This document shows, in pieces, positions 28,818-36,068 of a stretch of 36,068 nt of DNA. The DNA lies in contig CAKZMC010000015.1 in assembly GCA_937128055.1 (NCBI GenBank), positions 1 through 36,068 of the forward strand, read 5' to 3'. Both the position numbers and the translations under genes were made by a program. The notes below the pieces were generated by a model, which was given only the letters and a program-made list of their open reading frames with translations, searched no databases and was not told where the DNA came from. This stretch comes from an uncultured Actinomycetes bacterium (GTDB lineage: Bacteria; Actinomycetota; Geothermincolia; Geothermincolales; RBG-13-55-18). Each line of letters begins with the position of its first letter. Position 1 is the first letter of the stretch.

Positions 28818-30680
28818 TCAGGGGTAGATGTCCTTCTCCAGGTAGGAAAGGCCCAGAGAGCGCAGGACCTCCGGTTCCGGCTTGCCGTCATCCCGCAACC
28901 CGCGGTACTCGTAGAACTCCCGCAGCATGGTTTCCATGTCGGGCACCACCCCGGCTATGCTGCCCTCCCCGGTGGGGGTCATGATCCTCTGGCCGAGACG
29001 GTCGTCGGCTCCCGTGGCTCCCCAGATGTGCCCCAGGCAGCGCTGCAGGAACCACACGCGCTCGCCCGCCCGCATCATGTCCTCGATCTCCCAGCCGTAG
29101 CCGGCCACGGCGTTGAAGAGGTCGCGCAGCAGCGGGATGGTGAAGGAGGTGGCGGGGAAGACGCACCAGCAGGCGGAGTTCATGATGCACCCCAGGTCCG
29201 CCGTCTTGGCCGCCGCTTCCGCCTTGTGCTCGGTGCTCATGCCCCGGTAGTGCTTGTCCAGCCCTATCTCCGGGAAGCGGATGGCCCCCCATTCCAGCTG
29301 GTACATCATGTTGGAAACGTGGCAGGCACCGCGCACCGAGACGGCGTATGCCAGCCCGTCCCCCCAGTCGAGGCGCGGGTCGTGCATGGGCGCCTCCAGG
29401 CCTTTGCTGTCGGTGAGGAAGCGCTCGCTGCCGCCCCCTACCTCCCGCGAGGCTGCGCGGGAGCCCTTACCCAGCAGGGTCGCCAGCTTACCCTCCCCCG
29501 CGACGATCCTGGGCAACAGGGAAATGACCGTGTCTATGTCGCCCCACTCCAGCCGGATTCCCTCGTAATCCTCGGGCTTGAGGATGCCGTTCTCGTAGCA
29601 GTCCATGGCCCAGGCGAAGGTGGCTCCGCAGGTGATGGTGTCCATGCCCGAGCGGTTGCAGAAATCGTTTATCCAGGCTACCGCCTCCAGGTTGGCGTTC
29701 ATGAGCATGGTCCCGAAAGCCCCCAGGGTCTCGTACTCCGGGCCCGCTCCCGGCCCCATGGCATACGGCCCCTCCGGCACTTCCACCACCGGCTTGCAGC
29801 GGACCAGGCAACCCCGGCAGGCCCGCCTACCCACCATTATCTCCTCGTCCATGGTGATGCCCGAGAGGCGCTCCCCGCCTTCCTCCCAGATGCCCAGCCC
29901 CCAGTTGCGGGAGGGCACGTCTCCCTCGACCATCTTCGACTCCATGTTGCAGGCGGTCCCGAAAGCCCGCAGCGCCTTGGTCATGCCGCTCCGCTCCACC
30001 CATCCCTGGTAGGTCTTCGCCAGCTCCGCGAACTTCTCGGGGTCGCGGTACTGGATCTTCTTTTCCCCCCTGGCCACGACGGCCTTTACTCTCTTGGCAC
30101 CCATGACCGTGCCCAAGCCGGCCCGCCCGAAGACGTGCCCCTTGTCGTTGACTATGCTCCCGAAGGGAATGAGGTTCTCCGCAGCCGGCCCGATGGCCAA
30201 TACCTTGTGGGTCTTGCCGTGCCTTTCCTTCAGGATATCCGTCGTCTCGTAGGTATCCTTGCCCCACAGGTCCGAGGCGTCGAGGAGCTGCGCCGATCCC
30301 TCCTCCAGCAGCAGGTAGACGGGCTTCTCCGAGCGGTTCGTGAAAAGGATTGCGTCGTAACCGCAGCGCTTCAGCTCGGGACCGAAGTTGCCTCCGCAGG
30401 AGGCCTGCCCCCAGATACCGGTCAGGGGAGAACGCGACCCCACCGAGAGGCGGCTGGACCCGGAGAGCCCTATGCCGGTCAGGGGGCCTGCAGCGAAGAT
30501 GAGCGGGTTCTCGGGGTCCAGCGGCTCCGCGTCCAGGTGGCCGTGGTCGTAGAGCAGCCTGGCGGCCAGCCCGGCCCCCCCGATATAATCCCGGTACATC
30601 TCCTCGGCCAGCTCTCGCGCCTGCACCTTTCCCGAGGCGAGATCGACTTCCAGTACCTTCCCCATGTTCCCGTAAGCCAT
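28818..30680 (-). CDS. aor: Aldehyde:ferredoxin oxidoreductase (tungstopterin enzyme)
   Basis: A 620-residue member of the AOR family, which oxidises aldehydes to acids with ferredoxin as acceptor using a W-bis-pterin and one [4Fe-4S] cluster; the reverse reaction also occurs in anaerobes. The N-terminal domain has the typical YIGGAGLAARLLYD, AAGPLTGIGLSGSSRLSVGS and GQASCGGNFGPELKRCGYD. Cluster ligands are Cys288, Cys291 and Cys295 (CRGCLVRC) with the distant ligand probably Cys506 in SACWCVF. GAGPEYETLGAFGT is also characteristic. ATG 30680 follows AAGGAGGG. The substrate is not readable from sequence. A promoter at 30876-30905 implies a long leader of about 190 bases. Confidence 0.93.
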   Translation of the reverse strand: MAYGNMGKVLEVDLASGKVQARELAEEMYRDYIGGAGLAARLLYDHGHLDAEPLDPENPLIFAAGPLTGIGLSGSSRLSVGSRSPLTGIWGQASCGGNFGPELKRCGYDAILFTNRSEKPVYLLLEEGSAQLLDASDLWGKDTYETTDILKERHGKTHKVLAIGPAAENLIPFGSIVNDKGHVFGRAGLGTVMGAKRVKAVVARGEKKIQYRDPEKFAELAKTYQGWVERSGMTKALRAFGTACNMESKMVEGDVPSRNWGLGIWEEGGERLSGITMDEEIMVGRRACRGCLVRCKPVVEVPEGPYAMGPGAGPEYETLGAFGTMLMNANLEAVAWINDFCNRSGMDTITCGATFAWAMDCYENGILKPEDYEGIRLEWGDIDTVISLLPRIVAGEGKLATLLGKGSRAASREVGGGSERFLTDSKGLEAPMHDPRLDWGDGLAYAVSVRGACHVSNMMYQLEWGAIRFPEIGLDKHYRGMSTEHKAEAAAKTADLGCIMNSACWCVFPATSFTIPLLRDLFNAVAGYGWEIEDMMRAGERVWFLQRCLGHIWGATGADDRLGQRIMTPTGEGSIAGVVPDMETMLREFYEYRGLRDDGKPEPEVLRSLGLSYLEKDIYP

Positions 30681-33264: not shown

Positions 33265-35373
<2,109 letters not shown>

Positions 35374-35683
35374 GTCTCACTCCTTCCTTTCTACCGCAAT
35401 TCCTGCCGCACGGCCTCTATAGCAAGGCAATTGCCTGATTTTTCCAAATGCTGGAACCGTTTTCCGTGGTTCTTCTCCCTCGAGCGAGTGCAGCTGCTTC
35501 GCTGGACCCCATGGCGAACACCCTCATCTTAACTTCGATGTCACTTCACTTCCACCCTGGGGAGAAGAGCTTTCCTTATCGTCCCTTGTCGCCAGGCCGT
35601 CACGTACGGCCCGCCTTGAAAATTCGGAACTACGAAATTATAATTTGGGTTATTCAAAATTTCAAGGATTTTGGGGAGTGCTC
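35374..35683. other. Divergent region between hppA and the DtxR-family gene
   Basis: These 310 bases contain no gene. A perfect 12-bp palindrome AGGCAATTGCCT lies at 35425-35436, about 50 bases upstream of hppA, near a minus-strand TATAGA; it may be an hppA control site. The plus-strand side carries the promoter and inverted repeat of the regulator gene (listed separately). Confidence 0.45.
35614..35667 (+). promoter_or_regulatory. Promoter and flanking inverted repeat of the DtxR-family gene
   Basis: TTGAAA (35616-35621), a 17-base spacer and a perfect TATAAT (35639-35644) give a strong promoter, with a start near 35651 and about 33 bases of leader. The -10 lies inside a 12-bp palindrome AAATTATAATTT (35635-35646). 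CCTTGAAAATT (35614-35624) at the -35 and AATTTCAAGG (35658-35667) just past the start form an inverted repeat. This suits autoregulation by a dimeric repressor, which is inferred. Confidence 0.6.
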
Positions 35684-36068
35684 ATGAAATCGCAGCGCAA
35701 TCCGTCCGCCAAGGACCATTTCGGCGACTATCTCAAGCACATCTTCCGCCTGCAGCAATCCATAAGCCCGGTGTCCACCACCGCGCTGGCCGATTCCATG
35801 GGGCTGGCACCTTCCACGGTGACCGACACCCTCAAGAAGCTCTCGCAGAGGGGAGTCATCAACTACACCCCCTACCACGGCATAACGCTCACACCGCACG
35901 GTGAGAAACTGGCGGTGAAGGCCATCCGCCGCCACCGCATCGTGGAGAGGTTCCTCACCGACATGCTGGGCTTCGAGTGGCACGAGGCCCACGAGGAGGC
36001 GCTCCTTTTCGAGAACAAGATCTCGGACGAGGTGGAAAGACGGCTCTTCGTCGCGCTCAACCGCCCCA
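35684..36068 (+). CDS. DtxR/MntR-family metal-dependent regulator, N-terminal part
   Basis: The first 128 codons of a DtxR-type repressor, cut by the window end. Residues about 10-75 form the winged helix-turn-helix (STTALADSMGLAPSTVTDTLKKL), and residues about 76-128 the metal-binding and dimerisation domain (RRHRIVERFL, AHEEALLFENKISDEVERRL). Aligned to DtxR with a constant offset of +5, the ancillary-site residues are kept (His84, Glu88, His103), as is Glu110. The primary-site Cys102 and His106 equivalents are Leu107 and Asn111, and the Met10 position is Asp15, as in MntR. Metal response may therefore differ from that of DtxR or MntR. ATG 35684 follows GGGGAG. It diverges from hppA. Confidence 0.9.
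   Translation, partial: MKSQRNPSAKDHFGDYLKHIFRLQQSISPVSTTALADSMGLAPSTVTDTLKKLSQRGVINYTPYHGITLTPHGEKLAVKAIRRHRIVERFLTDMLGFEWHEAHEEALLFENKISDEVERRLFVALNRP

Follow-up and report, generated by a model that had tools for sequence, protein, structure and literature searches.

The window, by which we mean the whole stretch of 36,068 nucleotides analysed, corresponds to one complete contig (G000:C15) in a draft genome of 2.7 Mb. Positions 35684-36068 (+), at its right-hand end, encode the N-terminal 128 residues of a variant DtxR-family regulator, with an ATG at 35684 and a frame that is unclosed at the contig end; since the window is the entire contig, the gene has been truncated by the assembly. 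Completion from neighbouring sequence, as the earlier note had envisaged, was possible for the most part: the remainder lies on another contig of the same genome (G000:C22, from base 1, 100 codons followed by a stop), leaving between C15 and C22 a gap of approximately 8 bases that takes in codon 131, assuming the spacing of the orthologs. The fragment comprises the first two DtxR-family domains only (wHTH and dimerisation/metal domain), the third (FeoA/SH3-like) being encoded on C22, and in the ortholog L005 all three Pfam domains (PF01325, Fe_dep_repress; PF02742, Fe_dep_repr_C; PF04023, FeoA) score over their cut-offs. Against the NCBIfam MntR/DtxR equivalogs the best score is 100.6 bits for a cut-off of 350, the protein scanned being partial, and the closest relatives among named records are Candidatus Solincola and Candidatus Geothermincola, together with Actinomycetota MAGs. 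The one further protein of the genome matched by Fe_dep_repr_C is a site-intact paralog (L002/L051) encoded on C103. The wing of the wHTH domain in this paralog carries ~16 additional residues, and L033 (genome G002) shows a shorter insert at this wing position.

Divergent from the regulator lies hppA (33265-35373, -), which encodes a membrane pyrophosphatase of 702 aa (PF03030, 874 bits) that passes the NCBIfam cut-offs of sodium-pump-named and proton-pump-named models alike. It carries the K+-dependent signature GNTTAAIA, the Ala of which we presume, by our own mapping, to occupy position 12.46. Ala at 12.46 has been described as the K+-dependent state of membrane pyrophosphatases (PMC10897367). 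At the other end of the window the minus strand carries two tRNA genes (298-371 and 413-485), and an Rfam gathering search for a leader RNA across the window returned these two tRNAs only.

By phmmer, residues 14-128 of the regulator align with residues 6-120 of SloR (5cvi) and residues 15-125 with residues 10-120 of DtxR, the offset being +8 and +5, respectively, at both ends of the alignments. The gap-free +5 register proposed in the earlier note thus holds beyond residues 25-33, while within them the alignment to IdeR contains two small compensating gaps. We take the DtxR primary site to be Met10, Cys102, Glu105 and His106, and the ancillary-site residues to be His79, Glu83 and His98. In this register His84, Glu88, His103 and Glu110 correspond to DtxR His79, Glu83, His98 and Glu105, so the three ancillary residues of DtxR/IdeR are present in the window, and Leu107 falls at Cys102, Asn111 at His106, and Asp15 at DtxR Met10 and SloR Asp7. 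All of these assignments, including the retained residues and the MntR-type Asp15, agree with those of the earlier note. The primary site is consequently read as Asp15 (35726-35728, +), Leu107, Glu110 and Asn111 (codons 107-111, 36002-36016, +) and differs from that of DtxR/IdeR. Measured against site 2 of SloR (Asp7, Glu99, Glu102, His103; PMC9253540) it keeps two of four ligands, Asp15 and Glu110. Site 1 of MtsR/SloR is described as His76, Glu80, Cys123 and His125 (PMC9253540); its first two ligands, His84 and Glu88, are read directly in the window (codons 84-88, 35933-35947, +), His133 is encoded on C22 and Cys131 falls in the unsequenced gap, with both of the latter residues present in the orthologs. 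Membership is claimed in the DtxR superfamily only; the primary-site residue sets of the DtxR/IdeR and MntR/SloR subfamilies are both incomplete here.

For the structural comparison the Candidatus Solincola ortholog L052 (4807-5478) was modelled with AlphaFold2 (mean pLDDT 88.9), and the model matches DtxR-family chains along residues 12-223. In VIA-align 2, residues 11-223 of the model fall on SloR (5cvi) 3-215, keeping the +8 offset, and residues 8-140 fall on DtxR (2dtr) 4-135 with an offset of +4 to +5, both judged from the end points only; because these end points agree with the sequence alignment, the register of the earlier note stands. The Mn-dependent repressor 5zr6 is ranked first by Foldseek and is the best match in the structural alignment (Z 25.4, rmsd 2.1 over 209 residues), and the three-domain fold is likewise shared with the streptococcal Mn-responsive repressors MtsR, SloR and ScaR (SloR 5cvi, Z 20.9; ScaR 3hrs, Z 21.4), as is the His-Glu-Cys-His site 1 at the constant +8 offset. 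Compared with the Mn-dependent repressor 5zr4, the variant regulator shares Asp15 but has Leu for Glu at 107 and Asn for His at 111.

A profile built from the orthologs and three remoter relatives was searched over 396 genomes of the phylum, and the resulting group comprises 36 proteins (the window, 14 further members of its class and 21 from outside the class with fetched neighbourhoods), which we compared with 23 hand-picked site-intact DtxR proteins as controls. Position 102 in DtxR numbering (window 107) is Leu in 15, Gly in 12, Val in 3 and Arg, Ser or Thr in 2 each; none of the 36 has Cys, Glu or His, whereas the controls have Cys (15), Glu (7) or His (1). The claim that the primary site is crippled is supported, and the loss is fixed across the whole group. 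Of the 15 class members, 14 have Leu at residue 107 and one has Val. In the window's family the gene was found in 12 members, whose residue 111 (DtxR 106) is Asn in 7, Thr in 3, Ser in 1 and Gly in 1. Since His111 is thus absent from 12/12 family members and Cys107 from 15/15 class members, misalignment or sequencing error was rejected as the cause of the substitutions. Outside this family the pattern varies: His106 is kept in 23 of the 36, and among 21 members with a co-directional hppA (L048-L050, L119-L136) it is present in 20, L131 having Phe, while at residue 98 Asp replaces His in 17 and Ser does so in one, leaving three with His. By these sequences, different lineages in the group have lost different metal ligands.

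The 35 full-length proteins (the partial window protein being excluded from the tree and from site-1 counts) are separated from the 23 controls by one branch with support of 100/98 and one label change. We speak of a group and not strictly of a clade, because the tree is midpoint-rooted; two long branches meet inside the group. Among the positions conserved specifically in this group are Val87 and Phe109, together with two basic residues of the FeoA-like domain, 192 and 208 (L005 numbering), with Lys, His or Arg at 192 and Arg at 208 in 35/35, at which positions the controls mostly have neither Lys nor Arg. Residues 192 and 208 form a possible anion site.

This pattern bears on what, if anything, the protein senses. 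Were it an ordinary Fe/Mn-responsive DtxR, its primary site would have to work through Asp15, Glu110, a main-chain carbonyl and water, with hppA as one homeostasis target. The invariance of Glu110 and of an acidic residue at 15 (36/36) speaks for such a site, and against a model in which site 1 alone is used, as a dead site has no obvious need of them; the retention of His111 in a majority of the group and the differing composition of site 2 in MtsR and SloR, as described in PMC9253540, lean the same way. Yet position 107 never carries a ligand of the usual kind, the His at 111 is replaced throughout the window's family, and the same genome has a separate site-intact paralog, and we judge an ordinary Fe/Mn regulator unlikely. 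That the protein might respond to no metal had been raised in the earlier note, and is possible without being the best reading. In such a protein site 1 would be a structural relic, and the regulator would either bind constitutively or respond to a small molecule or to redox state, for example through Cys131, as the lost primary site and the group-specific basic residues of the FeoA-like domain might lead one to suppose. Drift of the kind visible at position 111 is what one would expect of a relic, but the His, Glu, Cys and His of site 1 are kept in 35/35 full-length members, and we regard this alternative as doubtful.

The group also has a nearly constant neighbour. hppA adjoins the regulator in 35 of the 36 members and is 1179 bp away in the remaining one (L122), while it was not found near any of the 23 site-intact DtxR genes in the 3.7-8.5 kb fetched around each. 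In the 14 class members other than the window hppA is divergent at a spacing of 207-515 bp, and outside the class it is co-directional and downstream, adjoining in 20 at a spacing of 87-275 bp. The coordinates of regulator and hppA agree in all 15 class genomes with the regulator; of the 16 remaining class genomes, some of them incomplete, 15 have hppA without it. Fetched DNA around four remote loci (three Chloroflexota, L063-L065, and the Propionibacteriaceae L066) gave no hppA match. The pumps beside the regulator have the K+-dependent signature in 16 cases and the K+-independent one in 16, the other 4 being unreadable where cut by contig ends, and the linkage thus outlasts a change of pump type. 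In genus g5 the hppA of L036 and L037 is 66-67% identical to that of the window, compared with 90-92% for L035 and L038, although all four share one type of promoter block, which looks like an in-place exchange of the pump gene.

The window's aldehyde:ferredoxin oxidoreductase gene (28818-30680) has no match (E 1e-20) in any of 14 ortholog neighbourhoods (4-20 kb), in all of which hppA adjoins the regulator, and the earlier suggestion of a response to tungsten or molybdenum supply was rejected as unsupported. The ABC pair between this gene and hppA is common only to L034, of the same genus, with one weak ATPase match in L046.

Between the two genes, the block at 35614-35667, where the earlier note had placed a promoter, is conserved in 12/12 aligned family members, the remaining intergenic DNA aligning poorly; the block is also present in L016, partial in L018 and absent in L017. 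By consensus match it comprises two overlapping divergent sigma-70-type promoters, with hexamers on both strands, and its two 27-nt arms are 70% complementary. The regulator promoter (35616-35644, +) reads TTGAAA-N17-TATAAT, matching the consensus at 11 of 12 positions, and the hppA promoter (35637-35665, -) has the same TTGAAA-N17-TATAAT form, the palindrome AAATTATAATTT being common to both. Two hexamer pairs of this type were found compared with 0.3 expected in shuffles. The spacer of the regulator promoter contains ATTCGGAACTACGAAAT, and the predicted operator in this spacer is TTCGGAACTACGAA (35623-35636; TTYGG-N5-CRAA). A weaker imperfect dyad, ATTTGGGTTATTCAAAA, found by inspection in the hppA-promoter spacer (35643-35659), differs by one in its spacing and is a possible second site.

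The predicted operator, written as TTYGG-N4-NCRAA, has the geometry of the 14-bp DtxR/IdeR box TTAGGNNNNCCTAA (PMC8464063), with TT.GG and CC.AA-like arms and a different third base (C/T, not A); the box was not used in finding the motif, and binding by the regulator is a prediction. The relaxed form TTYG-N6-CRAA occurs within 150 bp upstream of 25 of the 36 members compared with 0 of the 23 controls (300 shuffles, mean 0.8, maximum 4), a count that is not an independent test, because the motif was read from those same promoters before counting, and that overstates independence because the 12 family members are close relatives. It occurs in 12 of the 21 co-directional members (500 shuffles, mean 0.35, maximum 3). 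Among the 11 members that lack it, that of G105 was recovered by a genome scan with TTTTGGNNNNNCRAAA, so start calling explains part of the absences. By eye, operon promoters of other families have TTTTGG-N4-NCRAAA at the same place (for example L126, TTGACG-TTTTGGGGACACAAAAGC-TAGCTT), while in L132 the dyad lies downstream of a promoter-like hexamer pair.

These positions matter for a simpler reading, in which the block is a mere strong bidirectional promoter, the motif follows from promoter constraints or belongs to another regulator, and the neighbourhood is historical. Symmetric bidirectional promoters of this type have been described, and bidirectional promoters are reported as ubiquitous in prokaryotes (PMC12825309); the motif does sit in promoter spacers, and its genome-wide count in the class does not exceed that of the backward control (see below). 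A sigma-70 spacer, on the other hand, requires no fixed dyad, and the dyad recurs in unidirectional operon promoters of other families, can lie outside the hexamers as in L132, is missing upstream of the site-intact relatives and has the shape of a DtxR box. We find the mere-promoter reading quite unlikely.

The account we favour, with moderate confidence, is that the group consists of site-1-only repressors of primary ion pumps that bind TTYGG-N5-CRAA, with a metal most likely at site 1. The job of the group would be the control of primary ion pumps and not of metal uptake, and the regulator probably controls the neighbouring hppA. A dimer would bind this modified DtxR/IdeR box between the -35 and -10 hexamers, from which position we infer repression. 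Because the window promoter is symmetric, a single dimer at 35623-35636 would cover both the regulator spacer and the expected start region of hppA (~35630), turning both genes off. Regulation would proceed through the retained site 1 alone (His84, Glu88, Cys131, His133), most likely filled by a divalent metal, the alternatives being a ligand of the metal-phosphate type or redox sensing at Cys131, while the primary site (Asp15, Leu107, Glu110, Asn111) would no longer serve as a transition-metal site. MtsR offers a precedent for signalling through site 1, because its site-1 mutants lose repression fully, whereas site-2 mutants lose it partly, site 1 being the dominant Mn sensor (PMC9253540). 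One elaboration, which we consider improbable, is that of an energy-status sensor in which Mg- or Mn-pyrophosphate would be read by site 1 together with Lys192 and Arg208, tuning the pumps to the supply of pyrophosphate or ATP.

To our knowledge, little is known of how bacteria control the production of pyrophosphate-driven ion pumps. A literature search gave no paper combining DtxR with a membrane-bound pyrophosphatase and no DtxR-type regulator of hppA within the sources it covered, which does not prove absence. What appears new is an hppA-linked DtxR group with site 1 kept, the Cys/Glu ligand of site 2 lost and a predicted operator of its own; the partnership with hppA, the symmetry of the promoter and the operator all go beyond the earlier note. 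In comparison with MtsR, SloR and ScaR, the variant group has a damaged site 2, an ion pump adjoining instead of Mn transporters and the predicted operator TTYGG-N5-CRAA. Its kinship with DtxR/IdeR lies in the fold, the ancillary-site residues and the 14-bp box, and its differences in the replaced Cys102 and His106 and the third operator base; moreover, the variant regulator has its motif in its own promoter, whereas PMC8464063 reports no IdeR site at Saccharopolyspora ideR. The same source describes IdeR binding at the respiratory nuo promoter, a precedent for a DtxR protein acting outside iron uptake. The group is a natural experiment in how a two-site metalloregulator works after the loss of one site, and since the regulator stays with hppA across gene orientations and pump types, along with the predicted operator, pump control is directly testable.

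Finally, further copies of the motif were sought as candidate targets. The pattern WWTTYGGNNNNNCRAAWW matches the window's genome twice (control, once), at the regulator promoter and at C102:13526-13543, 115 bp before the first gene of a V-type ATPase operon. This first gene matches ATP synthase subunit H weakly (31.5 bits, below the cut-off), while the matches to subunits A, B and D exceed the NCBIfam cut-offs and those to I and C fall short of them. TrkA-type potassium-uptake genes (L219 13846-15993, G000:C102) lie directly upstream of this site-bearing operon. The ATPase site recurs at the same place, its arms unchanged and its middle variable, in G001, G005, G011 and G013, and in G009 is one base longer; G015, G016 and genera g4 and g6 have no such site. 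An isolated extra copy carries little weight, because the counts of WWTTYGGNNNNNCRAAWW are close to those of the backward control (88 strand-hits compared with 96 over 31 class genomes; 34 compared with 27 in the 12 regulator-bearing genomes of the family). The 25 places in these 12 genomes comprise the 12 regulator promoters, 5 V-type ATPase operons and 8 others that share no theme; a wider regulon was set aside as unsupported by these counts. No metal-uptake gene was recognised at the extra sites inspected (genes mostly judged by eye), a further point against an ordinary Fe/Mn regulator.

The regulator promoter is thus a solid site for the motif, and the occurrence of copies before ATPases of different types in two lineages suggests ATPase operons as targets. 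In some genomes the regulator would bind at the ATPase operon too, and it perhaps also controls the ATPase of the cell. Joint control of pumps has a precedent in Rex of Streptomyces avermitilis, because this one regulator governs both hppA and the ATP synthase operon (PMC5355995); Rex is an unrelated NADH/NAD+ sensor, and its site at hppA is TCGTGAATCAATTCACGA (PMC5355995). The second of the two lineages is that of the co-directional members, where TTTTGGNNNNNCRAAA gave 21 strand-hits at 16 places in 11 genomes compared with 4 for the backward control, 11 of the places being the regulator promoter. The additional place in G031, a perfect palindrome except in the middle, precedes by ~300 bp the genes of an F-type ATPase (PF00119, 193 bits; the ATP-synt_I match falls below its cut-off). 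That in G154 occupies the spacer of TTGACT-N17-TACTAT, upstream of an hppA that is on a different contig and shares 40% identity with that of the window. The places outside the pump theme are two in G060 that lack a clear theme and one at a glycerophosphodiester phosphodiesterase (GDPD) gene in G282. In the latter the palindrome TTTTGGGAGCCCAAAA (L234 1501-1516) lies directly before the gene, with its likely GTG start two bases on.
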